Source of the DNA: Andreesenia angusta
Lineage (GTDB): Bacteria > Bacillota > Clostridia > Tissierellales > Gottschalkiaceae
Length of the DNA stretch: 64,000 nucleotides
Direction: 5' to 3'
Assembly: GCA_030537835.1 (NCBI GenBank)
Contig: JAUNVB010000007.1
Location: forward strand, 1 to 64,000
Each line of letters opens with the position of its first letter. Position 1 is the stretch's first letter. Positions 12,842-63,900 of this stretch are shown here, one piece after another. Position numbers and translations under genes: made by a program. Below the pieces are notes generated by a model. That model searched no databases, was not told the origin of the DNA, and worked only from the letters and a program-made list of their open reading frames with translations.

Positions 12842-13921
12842 CTAATTAGAAGGAGGATCTCCTGCTAATATTTCTTCTGCTTCTTCATCAGTTAATTCAT
12901 ATTCATAAAATCTCTTATAGAAGTCTTTGGTCTTTTCAATCATATTCAAATCTTCAAATTTTTCAGGATGAAATAATTTCGCAGCCCATAGAATCTGTAA
13001 TGCCTCTTCAGCAGAATATCTATCCCAATTAAAAGTCCCAACAGGATTTCTTATAAGATTATCATCCTTAACCGCTTTTACATCTTTCCAAGCAGGATCG
13101 TTCTTTATCTTTTCTATGCCCTCCTTAGATTCTGTTCCACCAATGATAATATATTCAGGGTCAGATGCTATTATCTCTTCCATAGTTATTTCTGCTAAAT
13201 TAGCTTCTAAAGGTAAAGAGTTCTCCGCTCCAGCTATATCCATCCATTCTCCAATTATAGATTTTGCCCCATCGACTTTATTTAAATCGTCTCCACCAAC
13301 AATATGAAGAACTTTAGGCTTTTTATCTACATCTTTTAATCTCTCTCTTACATATTCGATATTTCCATCTAAATAATCTATATATTCTTTTGCTCTTTTT
13401 TCTGCATCAGATCCAATTACTTGACTAGTTATTTGCACAGTCTTCTTTAAGCCATCAAAATCTTGAAACATAACTTTAACTGCTTTGAGTCCAGCAGCTC
13501 TAATAGATTCTACCTGTTCATCATTAGCAGCTATTACTACATCTGGTTCTTTTTCTATTACTTCTTCTACATTATAATCGTGTCCTTTTACTAATGCCGG
13601 TACTTCCTTTATTCTAGGGTATACTTTAGCAAACCAAGGAAGGTTCTCTATACTAGTAGTAGTAGTCACTAATTTATCAGCCCCTCCTAATAATAAGACT
13701 ACTTGATTATTGGCATGCCAAAAATCTGCAATTTTTTCTACATCTTTTGGCAATTCTACTTCAGTACCATCTTGATCTACTACTATTCTAGTCTCATTCG
13801 ACTTTTCAACCTCTGTTTTTTGTTCTAATTTTGTCTCTGTCTTATTTTCACTTTCTTGACAAGCAGATAGGCTTAAAATTGTAGCTAAAGACAATCCTAT
13901 TATAATTATTTTTCTTTTCAT
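12842..13921 (-). CDS. ABC transporter substrate-binding lipoprotein (iron-siderophore/heme/cobalamin class)
   Basis: A 359-residue type III (FecB/BtuF-like) periplasmic-binding-protein fold. The lipoprotein signal ends in the lipobox LSLSAC near residue 20. The domain motifs IADFWHANNQVVLLLGGADKLV, EPDVVIAAN and ASDPEYIIIGGT are those of the BtuF/FecB family, which bind Fe-siderophores, heme or corrinoids. The start is ATG 13921 with GGAAGGTG at good spacing; the GTG nine bases upstream is inside the ribosome site. No permease or ATPase gene is adjacent, so it must use a transporter encoded elsewhere. The ligand cannot be assigned. Confidence 0.87.
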   Translation of the reverse strand: MKRKIIIIGLSLATILSLSACQESENKTETKLEQKTEVEKSNETRIVVDQDGTEVELPKDVEKIADFWHANNQVVLLLGGADKLVTTTTSIENLPWFAKVYPRIKEVPALVKGHDYNVEEVIEKEPDVVIAANDEQVESIRAAGLKAVKVMFQDFDGLKKTVQITSQVIGSDAEKRAKEYIDYLDGNIEYVRERLKDVDKKPKVLHIVGGDDLNKVDGAKSIIGEWMDIAGAENSLPLEANLAEITMEEIIASDPEYIIIGGTESKEGIEKIKNDPAWKDVKAVKDDNLIRNPVGTFNWDRYSAEEALQILWAAKLFHPEKFEDLNMIEKTKDFYKRFYEYELTDEEAEEILAGDPPSN

Positions 13922-14023
13922 ATTTAACACCTTCCGATCTATTCGTTATATTTTAAAAAACTTTTTATTTATTTGATTTTATCATATTTTAAAGTATTAT
14001 AATACATTCTTTTAATTATTAAA

Positions 14024-17983: not shown

Positions 17984-18220
17984 TTATTTAATTGCTAGCG
18001 ATATAACTATTGAAACTGCAATTACAATAGCTGATATTATTACTATTTTATCTGAAATAGCTTCATAAGATCTTCCTTGACTCTTAGACCAAGCGCTATC
18101 ATTAGTTGCTCCTCCGCCTATACTTCCAGATAGTCCTCCAGTCTTATCTTCTTGCATAAGTACATTTACTATTAGAATAATGCTCGCTATAACGACTATT
18201 ACCATTAATGCCGTTGACAA
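17984..18220 (-). CDS. secG: Protein translocase subunit SecG
   Basis: A 78-residue inner-membrane protein with two hydrophobic helices (about residues 3-22 and 57-76) separated by a glycine/serine-rich loop. The conserved region reads VLMQEDKTGGLSGSIGGG. SecG associates with SecYE and aids SecA-driven export. The start is TTG 18220, 8 bases after GGGAGG; the GTG upstream overlaps the ribosome site. In many Firmicutes secG precedes rnr, smpB and ssrA, as it does here after an insertion of cell-wall genes, and follows eno. Confidence 0.92.
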   Translation of the reverse strand: MSTALMVIVVIASIILIVNVLMQEDKTGGLSGSIGGGATNDSAWSKSQGRSYEAISDKIVIISAIVIAVSIVISLAIK

Positions 18221-18445
18221 AATTTCCACCTCCCAATGATATATTATACAATTATATCCTATTAGAATAATATTTTATCATTTATATTTTATTAAGTCAA
18301 TTATGTATATAAGCATACTGATATTCAGTTTTTATCATTTTTCAATTTTTCTCCTTTATTGTTATTATATACATATGGGGGTATGCGTTTAATTATACAG
18401 TTACTATATTTTTAATAAGGTATGGTTATTTCAGTAATACATATT

Positions 18446-18519
18446 ATTCTCATTTACCTAATTGAGAATCCTCTTTATTTCAAGCTGTGCATGAATTTAT
18501 TTTATTTATTTCTCAATTA
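18446..18519. promoter_or_regulatory. Inverted repeats upstream of the ferrosome-like operon
   Basis: Three copies of TTCTCA/TGAGAA occur. ATTCTCA at 18446-18452 is inverted against TGAGAAT at 18463-18469 (10-base spacer). TAATTGAGAA at 18459-18468 is an exact inverse of TTCTCAATTA at 18510-18519. The last copy ends 4 bases before the -35 box. This looks like an operator cluster. The rest of the ~400-base gap (18230-18445) is AT-rich with nothing else I can name. Confidence 0.5.
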
Positions 18520-18523
18520 ACTA

Positions 18524-18553
18524 TTGACATCTCTAATTTAATATATTATTATA
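18524..18553 (+). promoter_or_regulatory. Promoter of the ferrosome-like operon
   Basis: A perfect TTGACA (18524-18529) is followed by a TATTAT/ATTATA-rich -10 region at about 18544-18553, allowing 17-18 bp spacing with an imperfect -10. It lies about 90 bases upstream of the first gene and just below the inverted repeats. Confidence 0.55.
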
Positions 18554-18642
18554 AAGATACAGTATTAAATAAACTAGATTTTTTCATTTAGTACTAATAG
18601 ATTAAATGTTTAAATTTTTTATATATAAAGGAGATGGAGATA

Positions 18643-18906
18643 ATGAAAATAGGTGGAAAGAGAATATTAATATTTTTAGGTGGTTTAGTAGCAGGTGCAG
18701 CTGCTAAAAAAGTTTTAGAAAGCCAATCAGTTAGACAATTAGCTGTTGATGGAGTTGCAAAAGGTATAAAATTACAAAAGAGTGCACAAGAAACTTTAGA
18801 GAATTTAAAAGAAGATGCACAAGATATTCATCATGATGCAGCAAAAAAAGTAGATGAAGAAGATGCAATAGAAGCAAAAGTAGAAGAGATTAAAGAAGAA
18901 AAATAA
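18643..18906 (+). CDS. Small membrane-associated protein, FezA-like (DUF6110-type)
   Basis: An 87-residue protein. A glycine/alanine-rich hydrophobic stretch (ILIFLGGLVAGAAAKKVL, residues ~8-25) is followed by a charged, probably coiled-coil helix ending in an acidic EEIKEEK tail. The start is ATG 18643, 9-10 bases after AAAGGAG; an ATG nine bases earlier is too close. It is directly upstream (45 bases) of a P1B-type ATPase gene, the arrangement of the small FezA-type protein and FezB ATPase in ferrosome clusters, where such proteins associate with the membrane of iron-storing granules. The family call is from memory of that arrangement and size. Confidence 0.65.
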   Translation: MKIGGKRILIFLGGLVAGAAAKKVLESQSVRQLAVDGVAKGIKLQKSAQETLENLKEDAQDIHHDAAKKVDEEDAIEAKVEEIKEEK

Positions 18907-18951
18907 TTATCGGATTTAGTATTTAAATTGAATTATGTTAGGAGAAATTTT

Positions 18952-21051
18952 ATGAACTTTGTTATAAAATATGATCAACCAGGAAGAATCCGACTCAGAG
19001 CAGGCTATGATGCCTTCTCTGAGACGGATGCTTTAAATTTAAGGAGGGTTTTAGAAGACCTTCCCTATGTTTTTAACGCAAGAACGTCTCATAAAAATGG
19101 TGGTATGTTAATTTACTACAGATCGGAATATAGAGAAGATCTTTTAGATTTCGTAAGAGATTTAAAAAGAAGTGATATCGATTATTTGCCTAATGAGACA
19201 GAATTAGAATCATTAAGACTTAATAAAAAGTTTAAAAGAGATGTTATGAAAGTAATTGGTAAAGCATTATTCATGAGATTCTTAATGCCTATGCCTATTA
19301 GAAAATTCTCAGCGATTTGGAGATTTTCAGATTATCTTGATGCTGGAATAATGAGCTTATTGAAATTCAATCTGAATGTATCTGTATTAGATGCTACATC
19401 TATAGGAGTATCCATGTTAAGAGGAGATTATGGAACTGCTTCTTCTATAATGAATCTGCTTGAAATCTCAGATATTATGGAAGATTATACTAAGAAGAAA
19501 GCAGTTAATGATTTCAGTAGAGGTCTTTCAGTTAATTTAGAGAGAGTTTGGATAGAATCAGAAGATGGTGAAGAAATATCTATACCTTTAGAAGATGTAA
19601 AATTAGGAGATAGAGTAATCGTTCGTACCGGTTCATTAATTCCTCTAGATGGAAAGATAGCTGAAGGTGAAGCTTATATAAACGAATCCTCTATAACTGG
19701 TGAGATGCTTTCAGATTTAAAACAGAAAAACAGTAGTGTTTTTGCAGGAACTACTGTAGAGGATGGCAATATAGTAATGGAGGTTACTAGTCTTTCAGAT
19801 GAATCTAAGATAAATAAGATTGTAAATATGATAGAGCATTCTGAGAGCTTAAAAGCTAATATCCAAAATAGAGCTGAAGAAATGGCTGATAGATTAGTTC
19901 CATTTAGCTTTATAGGAGCAGGGCTTACTTGGCTATTGACTAGAAATACTATGAAGGTATTGTCTATACTATTAGTAGATTATTCTTGTGCACTAAAACT
20001 TACAGTGCCTATATCTATAATATCGGCAATGAGAGAGGCATCTAAATACAAGGTCTTAGTTAAGGGTGGAAAACATTTAGAGGCTTTTGCAAATGCAGAT
20101 ACGATCGTATTTGATAAAACTGGTACTCTAACTGTTGCAACTCCAAAGGTAAGAAAAGTAATTCCTTTTGGAGGTATGACTAGAGATGAAACTCTAAGAA
20201 CTGCTGCTTGCTTAGAGGAACATTTCCCTCATAGTGTGGCTAAAGCTATAGTTAAGCAGGCTGAGGAAGAAAACTTATATCATAGAGAGTTCCATGCCGA
20301 TGTCGAATATGTAGTCGCTCATGGTATAGCTTCAAAAATTGGAGATAAAAGAGCTGTAATTGGAAGTAGGCATTTCATCGTAGATGATGAAAAAACTCCT
20401 ATTTCAGAAGAAGATGAGAAGATTATAAATGAACTTGGAGAAAAATATTCACTTATTTATATGGCCATAGGTGGAAAATTATCCGGTATCATTTGTATAG
20501 AGGACCCTGTTAGAACGGGTGCAGAAAATACTATAGAAGAATTGAGAAATCTCGGTATAGAAAATATAGTTATGTTAACGGGTGATAGTGAAAAACCAGC
20601 AAAAGAAACTGCTGAAAAGCTTGGCATAACAGAATATAGATCACAAGTTCTTCCAGAAGAAAAAGCTAAATATATTCAGGAGTTAAAAAGACAAGGAAGA
20701 ACCGTTATAATGGTTGGTGATGGTGTCAATGACTCACCTGCACTAGCTGCTTCTGATGTATCTGTCTCTATGAATGAGGGTTCGGATATTGCTAGAGAAG
20801 TAGCAGATGTTATTCTATTAACACCTGATTTAAATGCACTTATAATGCTAAGAGAATTGAGTCAGGAACTATTTGCAAAAATAAATAGAAATTATAGAGA
20901 TATAATAGGTTTTAATTCAGGACTAATAGGGCTTGGACTATTAGGTTTATTGCCACCAGCTACATCAGCATTTTTACACAATGCTTCTACTGTTGCAATA
21001 AGCTTAAGAAGTACTTTCCCATGTCTACCAAATAGCTATAAAACGGTTTAA
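18952..21051 (+). CDS. P1B-type metal ATPase, FezB-like (ferrosome-type)
   Basis: A 699-residue heavy-metal P-type ATPase. The N-terminus carries a GRIRLR motif (R12, R14, R16) in a degenerate HMA-like fold. TGE loop is SSITGEM; the transmembrane metal motif is S345-C346-A347 rather than CPC/SPC; phosphorylation site D388 lies in DKTGTLT; GDGVND is at 589-594. SCA and an arginine-rich N-terminus are features I associate with the P1B-6 group that includes FezB, the iron transporter of ferrosomes in Clostridioides difficile and Desulfovibrio magneticus. Membrane segments are fewer and shorter than in CopA. Start: ATG 18952 behind AGGAG. Iron as substrate is inference. Confidence 0.8.
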   Translation: MNFVIKYDQPGRIRLRAGYDAFSETDALNLRRVLEDLPYVFNARTSHKNGGMLIYYRSEYREDLLDFVRDLKRSDIDYLPNETELESLRLNKKFKRDVMKVIGKALFMRFLMPMPIRKFSAIWRFSDYLDAGIMSLLKFNLNVSVLDATSIGVSMLRGDYGTASSIMNLLEISDIMEDYTKKKAVNDFSRGLSVNLERVWIESEDGEEISIPLEDVKLGDRVIVRTGSLIPLDGKIAEGEAYINESSITGEMLSDLKQKNSSVFAGTTVEDGNIVMEVTSLSDESKINKIVNMIEHSESLKANIQNRAEEMADRLVPFSFIGAGLTWLLTRNTMKVLSILLVDYSCALKLTVPISIISAMREASKYKVLVKGGKHLEAFANADTIVFDKTGTLTVATPKVRKVIPFGGMTRDETLRTAACLEEHFPHSVAKAIVKQAEEENLYHREFHADVEYVVAHGIASKIGDKRAVIGSRHFIVDDEKTPISEEDEKIINELGEKYSLIYMAIGGKLSGIICIEDPVRTGAENTIEELRNLGIENIVMLTGDSEKPAKETAEKLGITEYRSQVLPEEKAKYIQELKRQGRTVIMVGDGVNDSPALAASDVSVSMNEGSDIAREVADVILLTPDLNALIMLRELSQELFAKINRNYRDIIGFNSGLIGLGLLGLLPPATSAFLHNASTVAISLRSTFPCLPNSYKTV

Positions 21052-21147
21052 TTTTAATAATAAAGTGATTATAATTGAGGCTTAACATAATTTAAAATGG
21101 AAATAATTGAGGTTTAATTTCATAGGTCGATTAAGACAACGGATAAA

Positions 21148-21180
21148 AAGAGGAGAATCCTTAGGGGGGATTCTCCTCTT
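21148..21180. terminator. Bidirectional terminator between the ATPase gene and eno
   Basis: A 13-bp stem (AAGAGGAGAATCC and its complement) with a 7-base loop lies between convergent genes. It has AAAA before and TTATTTAT after, so it works in both directions. The following bases up to the eno stop (about 21172-21215) are a degenerate tandem repeat of a CTCTTTATTTAT unit. Confidence 0.9.
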
Positions 21181-21211
21181 TATTTATCTCTTTATTTATT
21201 TCTTTATCTCT

Positions 21212-24059
<2,848 letters not shown>

Positions 24060-31365: not shown

Positions 31366-31488
31366 TAACATGCAAAATAACTCTAATTAATAGAGTTTAT
31401 AGCGATTGTTATTCTAATATTATTTTTCTATATTATTGATTAAAGAATTATTGTGACTAAAAAGTCACTAAGTACAAATTAATTTATT

Positions 31489-31513
31489 AAAAAAGGGTGG
31501 TAAATAACCACCC
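31489..31513 (-). terminator. Terminator between grdB and grdC
   Basis: A 7-bp GC-rich stem (GGGTGGT/ACCACCC), 5-base loop, followed on the minus strand by six T, begins 17 bases after grdB. A second small hairpin (GTGACT/AGTCAC, 31453-31468) follows downstream. The operon is therefore split into grdEAB and grdCD segments. Confidence 0.88.
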
Positions 31514-31529
31514 CAAAAGTAAATTTATA

Positions 31530-32840
31530 TTAGTCTTCGAATACAGTTTGTCCGTCAACTTCAGTTGTAAGAGCTTTTATAGCCTTATCAATAATTCCTC
31601 TTCTAAGAGCTTTTTCCTCTTCATTATTTAAACTTGGATTTCCAAGTGGATGAGGAATAGCTATTGCTGGTACTATTCTATTAGCTCCAACAGTTAATGA
31701 AATTGGTACTACAGTACAGATATGAACTACTGGTAAACCAGTCTTCTCTATCTCTTTTACCATCGTTGCCCCGCAACGTGTACAAGTACCTCAAGTAGAA
31801 GTTAAGATAACTGCATCTACTCCATCTTCAACTAGTTCCTTAGCGATATCAGCTGCATATTGTTTTGCACTAGCAACTGCAGTACCGTTACCTGTAGTTG
31901 AGTAGAAGTATCTATGAAGTGATCCTATTTCTCCATTCTTTTCCATTTCTCTTAAAATGTCAACTGGGATAACTCTATCAGGGTCCTCATTAGCATAAAC
32001 TGGGTCATGACCACCATGTGCAGTTTCATGAGTTTCTGATGTTAAGTCATCTAATCCATCTATATCGTATTTTCCATACTTAGATGCTGATGAAGATTCT
32101 ATATGATCTGGATTTCCTTTTGGAACTATACCTCCAGAAGTTACTATAGCAATCTTTGCTTTAGTTATATCAGCAATCGCCTTTCCTGGTTCAACTCTGT
32201 CGAAGTCAGGCATAGGGAATTCTGTAACGAAATCTTCACCCTTAAGTTTCTTAATGAGCATATCAACAGCTCTTGCAGAACCTCTTTTATCTTCAAATAT
32301 ATTCTTTCTAACACCTCTTGCTATATAGCCTTCTTCATCAGGTGTTCCAATCTCTTCTCCCTTAGCTAATTTAAGAGCTAATTGAGACATTGATTTTACA
32401 GCACCTCTCATTCCTGCAGCACTGTTCTTAGTAGATACCATATATACGTTTTTCTTAAACATATCAGCTCCAGGGTTTTCAACATACATTCCTGTAAGTG
32501 ATGGTATTCCTAATTCGTCTTGCACTGCAGTAGCTATAGTTCCACAAGCAACTCCGTATCTACCAGCGTTGAAAGCCGGTCCAGCTATAAATAAATCTGG
32601 ATTGTATTCTTTAACCATTTCAAGAACTTTCGCTTTTGCTTCTTCCAAGTTTTCGTTGAAGTATGTGTCTCCACATATTACTGTAGCAACTATTTCAGCC
32701 TCATCTTTGAAGTTTTGCTTGAAAGCTAAACCAGGTCCTATTACTTCTTCTTTAACAACCGGTTCGAAATCAGCTTTTTCTTCTCCACCAATTCCACCGA
32801 AGAACTGGTTTATATAGTGTACAACCTTGATTTTACTCAT
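31530..32840 (-). CDS. grdB: Glycine reductase component B gamma subunit GrdB, selenoprotein
   Basis: A 436-residue selenoprotein, the substrate-specific subunit of glycine reductase. An in-frame TGA at 31793-31791 encodes selenocysteine at residue 350 in the redox motif ILTSTUGTCTRCGATMV; translation continues in frame to TAA at 31530. A standard caller splits it into 349-aa and 77-aa pieces, but family alignment and spacing match full-length GrdB. Together with the GrdE pyruvoyl group it binds glycine as a Schiff base and transfers the carboxymethyl group to GrdA. A perfect hairpin lies 12 bases after the TGA. ATG start, 45 bases after grdA. Confidence 0.96.
31764..31778 (-). promoter_or_regulatory. 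SECIS-like hairpin downstream of the grdB selenocysteine codon
   Basis: CGTTGC and GCAACG form a perfect 6-bp stem with a GGG loop, beginning 12 bases after the TGA codon. This matches the placement of bacterial SECIS elements, which lie inside the coding region just after UGA and carry conserved G residues in a small apical loop for SelB binding. Confidence 0.65.
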
Positions 32841-32885
32841 AATAACCCTCCTCTCAGAATATTTTATATTCCGCCTAATCTATAA

Positions 32886-33350
32886 TTATTCTGCATCTCT
32901 AACATCGTGCATTGCTTCTATTATTTCATCTACATCTAGAACCATTTCCATCATTCCTATTTGGTCATCATAGATATCTTCATCTACAACATCTTTGAAT
33001 TCTGGTTCTACAGCGTGATAAACTTCGAGTCCTAACTGAACTCCTGTTAATGGACCTGCAAACGTAGGGTCTCCTAATCTAACTGTTTCTGCAGCTAATG
33101 CAGCTGATTCAGCTTCCGCTGCTCCAACTATAACTACTATATTTTCAGCTCCGTGCTTCTCAGCTAAATCTTTCACCCTTTGTTGATTTTCTAAGTCCAT
33201 TGATCCTGCAGCCGTTCAGACAAAACACTCTGTTGATGAGAAAACAACTTCTGTGTCTTCTATCGGCTTTAGGCATTCTTCGATAGCTGGTCCTGGTATA
33301 CCATCTCTATCGCCTATTACGATAACTTTTTTATCAGTAAATACGCTCAT
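32886..33350 (-). CDS. grdA: Glycine reductase component A, selenoprotein GrdA
   Basis: A 154-residue selenoprotein shared by all glycine/betaine/sarcosine reductases. The frame starts at ATG 33350 ([20 protein letters not shown]) and reads through TGA at 33218-33216, giving C42-F-V-U45 followed by [14 protein letters not shown]. The selenocysteine carries the carboxymethyl group and is re-reduced by the thioredoxin system. A caller that stops at TGA would report only a 104-aa C-terminal fragment from 33200. Located between grdE and grdB with short gaps. Confidence 0.96.
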
Positions 33351-60980: not shown

Positions 60981-63900
60981 TTATAACCCTGCATTATTCA
61001 ATATAATATTAACATCTGATATATCTACTTGTCCATCATCGTCGTAATCATATATTTTCATATTATCCTCTGTTATTTCATTATTATTTATTAGATCTAA
61101 TAAATAATAAGCATCGTGACTATCTATCAATCCATCTTTGTTTAAATCATAATCAGATGAATCATCCCCAATATCATCATCAGGAGTAGCAGTTCCTTCT
61201 ACAATTATTACTCGCTCTACTTTTGTTGAATTTCCTGCAGAGTCTGTTGCTGTATATATCACTAAATATTTTCCAGGCTTTTTAGTATCTACAAAGTCCC
61301 CGCTGATATGCAATTTTGGAGAATCTGCTCCTAAATAATTATCGGTAACTTGAACTCCTTCATAAGGATTGAAATCATCTCCTAGATTTATAGTAATAGA
61401 TTCTGTTCCAAAAATTTTAGGTGCTTCATTATCTGGTTTTGTATTCTCAGTTAAATCATATATTTTTTTCAGTATTTCTCTTATTTGTATATCTGTAGCA
61501 TCATTATCCTTATATAATTTATTTCCTTCTTCTATTAATTTATTTGCTTCTTCTATCCTCTTATCCATAATCTTCCCTTTTGGTAATTTGGGGTTTAATA
61601 AATTATTAGATAATTTTGTTAGAGATGATTCTAAAACTGATTTAAGATTTTTCAATATTATTTCTTCCTCATCTATCTCTATAACTTCAATATTTTTCAG
61701 TTCTTGTTTAAATTCTTCTACTATTTCTCTAATTCTTATTTTATCACTCTCTACAGACGTTTCATTTGTAAATCCTTCAAATTTATTCTCATATTCTTCA
61801 ATCAAGTTTTTTACTCTTTCCCAATTTTCTGCAGTATAATTATCTACAAAAGGATAGCTCTGTATTTCTTTCTTAGCCAGATTCCTCAAATCTTCTATAG
61901 AAGTGTTTTCTATCCAACCATTTTCAAATTCTAATACTGGATATCCGTTATTTATATGGTATTTATCTTCAGAGAATTCTGCTCCCATAGTTCTTAGGAA
62001 TTCTGTTGATAAAAACTCTTCTTCGCTCTTTATTTCAACACCCAAGATCTCATTTTCACTATATACGGTTTTATCTAAACAATATGAATTATTAGCATTT
62101 GTATTCATTCCTCTATACTTAGGTATAAACCCACTATATTTTGTTATATTTAGTCTATTATCGAGTTTTCCAGTAGAATATACATTTTTCGCTACTTCTC
62201 CATATTTTTCTGCATTTGCAATTACGGTTCCTATAGATGATTCTGCTGAAGACGATCCTAATGAAATTACATTTCCTGTTGAATATGCATTTTCTATGGA
62301 TTTATAACTTCTTCCAATAATTCCACCAGTCCAATAGTGACCAGTTATAGTTCCAGTATTACTAACTCTATTCACTCTTCCTTTATTCTCTCCTACTATA
62401 CCACCTAGTGTCAGTCCGTTTTTAGAATCTAGTATAGGCCCTTGATAGATATTTCCTGTATTTCTTGCTTGATCTATTGAAGACTTATCATCTAAATACC
62501 CTGCTATGCCACCAACATTACCATATTTTGAGCTAATAGTCCCTTTATTCTCTGCTAATTTAATTTGAGTATTAACTGCAGTACCAACAATTCCACCTAT
62601 ATTTGAATCAGTGGCAACAGTAGTTTCTGCAAAGGATTTAACATTTTCTAATATAGCATTTTCTGTATATCCAACCACGCCACCTATAGGTGTTCCACCT
62701 TCATTTACTAGTATTTCTCCATCTACTGTAAGATTTTTTATTACTGCTGGCTGATCCTCTGTTCCTATGAGATTTGCGAATAATCCCATTCCCTTTTCAT
62801 TTGCATTATAGATATTCATACCTGAAATTCTATAACCATTTCCATCGAAAACACCTGCAAAAGCATTAGCTTTACCCATAGGAGCCCATGGTAAATTTTT
62901 AAAAGGACTTCCCGTTGAGTTAACTCTCAATCTTATATCACTTGTTAATTTTATAGTCTTACCTTTAAAATCTTCATTTTTTATATTATAAACTTTATTA
63001 TTTAATATCTTTGCCAGTCCTGCTAACTCATACTGATTTTTTATTTCGAAGACTGTATCCTCGGGATTATACCAGCTGAAGTCCGCAGCTGATAGCAGAT
63101 CCCATTCAATTTGTGCTTTAATAGCTTCAGTTGTAATTACAGGTTGTTCTGTTCCTAATACTTTATACCTCTCTTGCCAATCTGGTAAATAATATTGTTT
63201 TACACCTGTTGCATTGAATTTAATATGCGAAATTCGCGAATAAAATTCTTCAAATACTGTATATTCAAACTGAAGATCATCTCCCTCATATACTAGATCA
63301 CCAGATTTCACTTCTTTATCATAAACTCTTTCAAATTCTCCATTCTCATTAATATCAATTCCAGTTTTTAGAACTTTAATAGCATATTCTTTAAATTTAG
63401 GGATTTCTAGCGGAAAAGATTTAGCGTCTTTTATAACTGCCGATACTCTTATATCCCTATCTGCTATAACTACATCTCCTTCAATTTTTTCACCATTAAC
63501 AGTGTAATAATCTATAATCTTTCCTGGTTCTACCTCTGCTTTTAGATGTATGAACATCCCATAATCAACTTCACTATTTATTTCATTCGTTATTTTTATA
63601 CCTTCTATATTATTATCTATTTCTACTTTAACTTTTTCTCCTCTTTCTTCATATACCAATTTAGGCATTCCAGAATCATTATATTTAAATGCCGATATAT
63701 TAGAATTTAAAAGATTTGCGAATTCTTTTGACTTCATTTCACTTTCTGTCTTCATGCTACAATTATTCTTTTCTAAATCTGAATCACTATATTTATTTAT
63801 ACCTTTACTTAACAATTTATCTTCTTTCCAGTAGCAATTACTAGCATATCCTTCTTTAGCTGCATCGATTGAGCTATAGCTTCCTATACCATAAGCTTCA

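Follow-up and report, generated by a model that had tools for sequence, protein, structure and literature searches.

The closest described system to the locus reported here is the ferrosome locus of Clostridioides difficile, given as fezAB (CD630_05910-05920) in one report (PMC11651100); a second states that the ferrosomes need both FezA and FezB and that Fur represses both (PMC12574912). Ferrosomes are granules enclosed by a membrane in which iron is stored with phosphate. Multi-gene fez clusters are found in Desulfovibrio magneticus and Rhodopseudomonas palustris, with six fez genes used in the latter (PMC12016538). Another related arrangement is the mycobacterial PacL-CtpC effluxosome, where a one-helix small protein is likewise encoded directly before a P1B ATPase. 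The kinship of Pfam families DUF1490 (the PacL family) and DUF6110, and the position of DUF6110 genes beside P1B6 pumps, have already been stated (PMC9374683), and the PacL authors have termed DUF6110 proteins PacL-like and suggested that they assemble platforms (PMC9374683, PMC13043812). Neither of these papers, the only two naming DUF6110 in the literature searched, mentions ferrosomes.

We analyzed a 64,000-nucleotide stretch of Andreesenia angusta DNA (contig JAUNVB010000007.1, hereafter the window) and found that it carries fezA and fezB, forming a genuine but diverged member of this known, widespread system. The pair shares with C. difficile fezAB the two genes, their order, a FezB with both SCA and HN motifs and the FezA family, but differs in its FezB subgroup, in the length of FezA (87 aa versus 131 aa in C. 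difficile) and in its position between eno and secG with no Fur box found. The D. magneticus and R. palustris clusters share the core idea, and proteobacterial SCA FezB-like ATPases form the sister clade, whereas the window pair has no FezC-like or HMA2 genes beside it.

Organization of the locus

The features of the locus are as follows.

17984..18229, minus strand: secG, left border of the insertion
18446..18469, no strand assigned: inverted repeat ATTCTCA-N10-TGAGAAT, upstream of the promoter
18524..18552, plus strand: promoter of sigma-70 type, TTGACA-17-TATTAT (11/12 matches), upstream of fezA
18643..18906, plus strand: fezA homologue, 87 aa, with ATG 18643 as the best start
18952..21051, plus strand: fezB homologue, 699-aa P1B-6-type ATPase, ATG 18952 preferred (AGGAG upstream)
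18952..19161, plus strand: FezB N-terminal domain (residues 1-70), GRIRLR at 11-16, predicted beta-beta-alpha-beta-beta-alpha
19984..19992, plus strand: SCA metal-site motif in TM4 (residues 345-347), context VDYSCALK
20113..20127, plus strand: DKTGT phosphorylation motif (D388)
20977..20982, plus strand: HN motif in TM6 (residues 676-677), context FLHNASTV
21147..21181, no strand assigned: strong hairpin of 16 pairs between fezB and eno, followed by T-rich plus-strand sequence
21212..22504, minus strand: eno, right border of the insertion, convergent with fezB

The initial annotation had described a small Gly/Ala-hydrophobic protein with an acidic helical tail directly before an ATPase, and this was borne out by the 87-aa FezA, encoded first and on the same strand, with 45 bases separating it from fezB. 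Its placement of SCA at residues 345-347 is exact with the ATG 18952 start; the fezB frame is open from TTG 18928, and a start there would put SCA at 353. Position 18446, given as the start of the operon, belongs instead to the inverted repeat upstream of the promoter and is not a gene start. This repeat, present as a single copy in the whole genome, may be an operator, but repeats of that size were not above chance in the region (1 found versus 2.4 expected) and we did not retain it as a candidate. Promoter-like sites in the region were also at chance level in number, while seven terminator-like sites were found versus 0.9 expected, several of them overlapping the hairpin at 21147..21181. No RNA elements were observed in the 15-24 kb part of the window. 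Searches for a Fur box upstream of fezA with 15- and 19-base consensus sequences found nothing above shuffles, the best 15-mer having 9/14 matches; the genome's own feo promoters were also at chance, and the consensus may be unsuited to this species.

Elsewhere in the window, grdB and grdA of glycine reductase (31488-33338, minus strand) carry in-frame TGA at the expected selenocysteine places (ILTSTUGTCTRCG, STECFVUTAAG), and both are split in the mechanical list of open reading frames. A 944-aa surface protein (60984-63815, minus strand) contains GLUG and bacterial Ig-like domains and a C-terminal EF-hand-like repeat pair of dockerin-like look, with no match to a dockerin family reported.

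The FezB homologue

The window ATPase scored 493.7 bits with TIGR01525 (heavy-metal P-type ATPase), above the cut-off, and was 46% identical to C. difficile FezB over the full length. The C. difficile genome contains one close FezB homologue, its other matching pumps being 28-31% identical. In two trees, the second with bootstraps and both built without P1B-5 and P1B-7 references or D. magneticus FezB, the window protein was placed within a fully supported clade of DUF6110-linked SCA pumps; support for the clade of window and C. difficile FezB was 100/100 in the second tree and SH-aLRT 100 in the first. Proteobacterial Fez-type pumps (SCA) were sister to this clade, which was separate from CopA and ZntA of E. 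coli, from the genome's own CPC pumps and from the PacL-linked pumps of Rhodococcus, Pseudonocardia and Mycobacterium plasmids; the P1B-4/PfeT group was represented, in the first tree, by a single protein with an SPC motif, which was placed with the ZntA group. Within the clade, the window FezB grouped with those of Anaerotignum, Methanobrevibacter, Fibrobacter and Ruminococcus, outside the C. difficile subgroup, and to our knowledge ferrosomes have not been demonstrated in the subgroup to which it belongs. Three archaeal fezAB pairs from Methanobrevibacter (L060, L062, L066) were nested among bacterial ones, which suggests that the genes may have been transferred between domains.

Residues S345, C346, A347, D343 and K349 were invariant across the aligned FezB sets, as were HN and many other residues of the membrane site, and the SCA/HN site is unchanged between the window and C. 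difficile proteins. An HN motif in TM6 has been described as a feature of P1B6 pumps (PMC9374683). The nucleotide-domain HP motif is replaced by HFPHS in the window FezB and most FezB proteins, while HP is kept in proteobacterial Fez-type, PacL-linked, CopA and ZntA pumps. The structural model (mean pLDDT 79) matches P1B structures of Cu and Zn pumps and contains eight helices that we assign as the probable membrane helices of a P1B pump. In its N-terminal domain, for which we found no CxxC and no Pfam match, strands and helices follow one another as in a ferredoxin-like fold. The GRIRLR sequence noted at the ATPase N-terminus is present, but its value as a FezB marker was lost on comparison, with GRIR or GRVR also carried by PacL-linked CPC pumps; the SCA motif and the tree therefore carry the identification of FezB.

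Two observations concern related ATPases. In relatives belonging to the same order, three P1B ATPases (L144, L153, L154), each roughly 615 aa long, have CPG in place of CPC in TM4. An in-frame TGA in the fezB of two relatives was considered as selenocysteine and rejected, the one checked being an ordinary stop through which the alignment had read.

The FezA homologue and its similarity to PacL

FezA consists of a Gly/Ala-rich TM helix (approximately residues 8-26) followed by a charged helix whose tail is acidic; the protein contains an internal DIHHDA and ends in EEIKEEK. It is the sole DUF6110 match in the 1.52-Mb genome, passing the Pfam cut-off narrowly (27.5 bits versus 26; 27.3 bits in the genome search), while C. 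difficile FezA itself scores 83 bits with this family. The two FezA proteins matched by BLASTP (E 3e-10), and comparison of their group profiles by hhalign gave a probability of 98.6% (E 1e-15, score 89.6, shuffled maximum 17.4). Together with the FezB identity and the fully supported clade, these matches uphold the fezAB identity proposed in the initial annotation. Neither outcome that it had named as contrary was seen: the ATPase did not group with CopA, with ZntA or with the one SPC-motif protein standing for PfeT, and the small protein does resemble FezA. In one relative, a DUF6110 gene beside an intact fezB contains an in-frame TAG (G384:C2:254922-255131, L043), so that either this fezA is disrupted or the assembly is wrong there.

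The most probable explanation, and the one we favor, is that the locus encodes an Fe(II) pump, FezB, gathered by a scaffold, FezA, into a ferrosome vesicle that stores iron. FezB would pump ferrous iron from the cytosol across the membrane through a transport site centered on Ser-Cys of TM4 and on His-Asn of TM6. The Gly-rich helix and charged cytosolic helix of FezA would gather FezB into a membrane patch, a scaffold role suggested by analogy with PacL, and this patch would become the ferrosome vesicle in which iron would be stored with phosphate. Ferrous iron is the expected cargo because of the characterized C. difficile homologue and the iron-gene neighbors seen in relatives. We infer from homology that vesicles of this kind may form in A. 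angusta, and we regard ferrosome formation by the source organism as plausible.

Comparison with PacL proteins brings in the main rival explanation. The window FezA scored 25.6 bits with Pfam DUF1490, below the cut-off of 28.4. In profile comparisons, based on small groups (10, 16 and 8 sequences) of a short helical protein, the window FezA subgroup matched eight PacL proteins at 82% probability with a score of 35.2, against at most 19.8 for shuffled sequences; the C. difficile-type FezA group was at the level of noise (18.2 versus a shuffled maximum of 17.6). The window subgroup thus appears to form a sequence bridge between FezA and PacL, a reading that needs confirmation. These scores speak for a PacL-like platform for Fe(II) efflux in the plasma membrane, in which FezA would cluster and stabilize FezB and excess iron would be exported with no organelle formed, as do the N-terminal GRIR and TM6 HN that the window pump shares with PacL-linked CtpC-type pumps, and the published suggestion that DUF6110 proteins are PacL-like and assemble platforms (PMC9374683, PMC13043812). 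However, the PacL-CtpC pump has CPC rather than SCA and a separate position in the tree, the window ATPase lying in the FezB clade; the window FezA lacks the metal-binding His motif found at the C-terminus of PacL; and the characterized DUF6110 protein, C. difficile FezA, is needed for ferrosomes (PMC12574912). We therefore consider an efflux platform rather unlikely, and ferrosome storage remains the favored reading.

The partners of the two small-protein families were also recorded. PacL genes were observed paired with at least three P1B classes, CopA-like, ZntA-like and CtpC-like (L166, L171, L221, L223, L224, L225), and FezA-type genes were seen solely beside SCA-clade pumps. On Mycobacterium avium plasmid pP2-4a (L222, 2714-4451), a DUF1490 gene is flanked by an ABC ATPase gene on one side and fetB on the other, with an iron-export annotation, and not by a P-type ATPase.

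Iron genes near fezAB and in the genome

Among the best-matching loci, 21 of the 73 FezB loci had a Feo, Fur, DtxR or FecCD gene within 5 kb, compared with 3 of the 22 control P1B loci (Fisher p 0.18). When only same-strand iron genes (feo, Fur, DtxR-like, iron ABC permease) within 5 kb were counted in the best-matching loci, the numbers were 18 of 73 and 0 of 22 (p 0.010), a statistic that is no more than indicative, the test having been picked post hoc with a probe panel mostly from fez loci and with loci that are not independent. Examples include a feoA-feoA-feoB-FeoB-associated Cys-rich protein-fezA-fezB cluster in G036, a genome of the same order, fezAB with a Fur gene and feoB nearby in Coprococcus comes, and fezAB with iron ABC permeases nearby in G108. 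The G036 pair is homologous to that of the window (FezB 43-45% identical) but lies within a ferrous-iron uptake cluster, while the window pair stands alone.

No Feo, Fur, DtxR or FecCD neighbor was found within 5 kb of the window pair. The nearest iron-type gene, about 5 kb away on the opposite strand, encodes a Peripla_BP_2 protein (12845-13930, minus strand, 84 bits) of the iron/heme/cobalamin-binding type, which has no transporter genes of this kind as immediate neighbors. The two-gene locus had been taken as unusually minimal, which does not hold: C. difficile itself uses just fezAB (PMC11651100), and fezAB pairs without iron neighbors occur commonly in a different family of the order. Iron handling in the genome includes one Fur-family regulator, two feoB, one ferritin and one rubrerythrin; with ferritin present, iron storage does not require ferrosomes.

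The lack of an adjoining iron gene leaves some room for a P1B-6 pump that moves Zn, Cd, Mn or Co, aided by the small protein, and to which the iron linkage of relatives would not be transferable, within a group that has been called poorly characterized (PMC9374683). We regard this as improbable given a metal site invariant with that of C. difficile FezB. The genome's two further P1B ATPases, both CPC and of CopA and ZntA type, are expected to handle Cu and Zn/Cd, which also argues against it, as do the DtxR-like repressor and the TonB receptor near the pairs of two members of the window subgroup, Anaerotignum and Fibrobacter, respectively.

Insertion and distribution of the pair

The fezAB pair occupies a 3-kb insertion between eno and secG, which are adjacent in G001 (same genus), in G002 and G003 (same family) and in G036. 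The first three of these relatives, the ones compared from the genus and family, lack fezAB. Within the 249 genomes of the order, FezB was observed in family f4 (56 genomes) and otherwise in the window genome only. Gain in the window lineage is the simplest reading, and loss in the few relatives compared is also possible. The best full-length f4 matches were 47-48% identical to the window FezB, so no recent donor is visible, and recent acquisition was unsupported by composition, the GC and GC3 of fezB being similar to those of neighboring genes. That the locus was acquired horizontally and sits intact yet idle, poorly expressed or decaying, would fit its absence from these relatives and its insertion at a conserved junction but is very improbable in view of its two intact frames, ribosome-binding sites, near-consensus promoter, conserved catalytic residues and neighbor-like GC3.

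Implications

The FezA-PacL match ties together the scaffolds of ferrosomes and those of metal-efflux platforms, and the two literatures, on ferrosomes and on PacL, cover related proteins, as the DUF6110 match of C. difficile FezA indicates. As a speculation that we think unlikely, the window FezA subgroup could be intermediate, with one ancestral one-helix scaffold that clustered P1B pumps giving rise both to plasma-membrane efflux platforms and to ferrosomes, and present-day members of the subgroup could be assembling the older Fe(II) platform that lacks vesicles. On the favored reading, the genes place a small-genome anaerobe, with a locus as short as that of C. difficile, among the bacteria in which iron is probably stored in ferrosomes.
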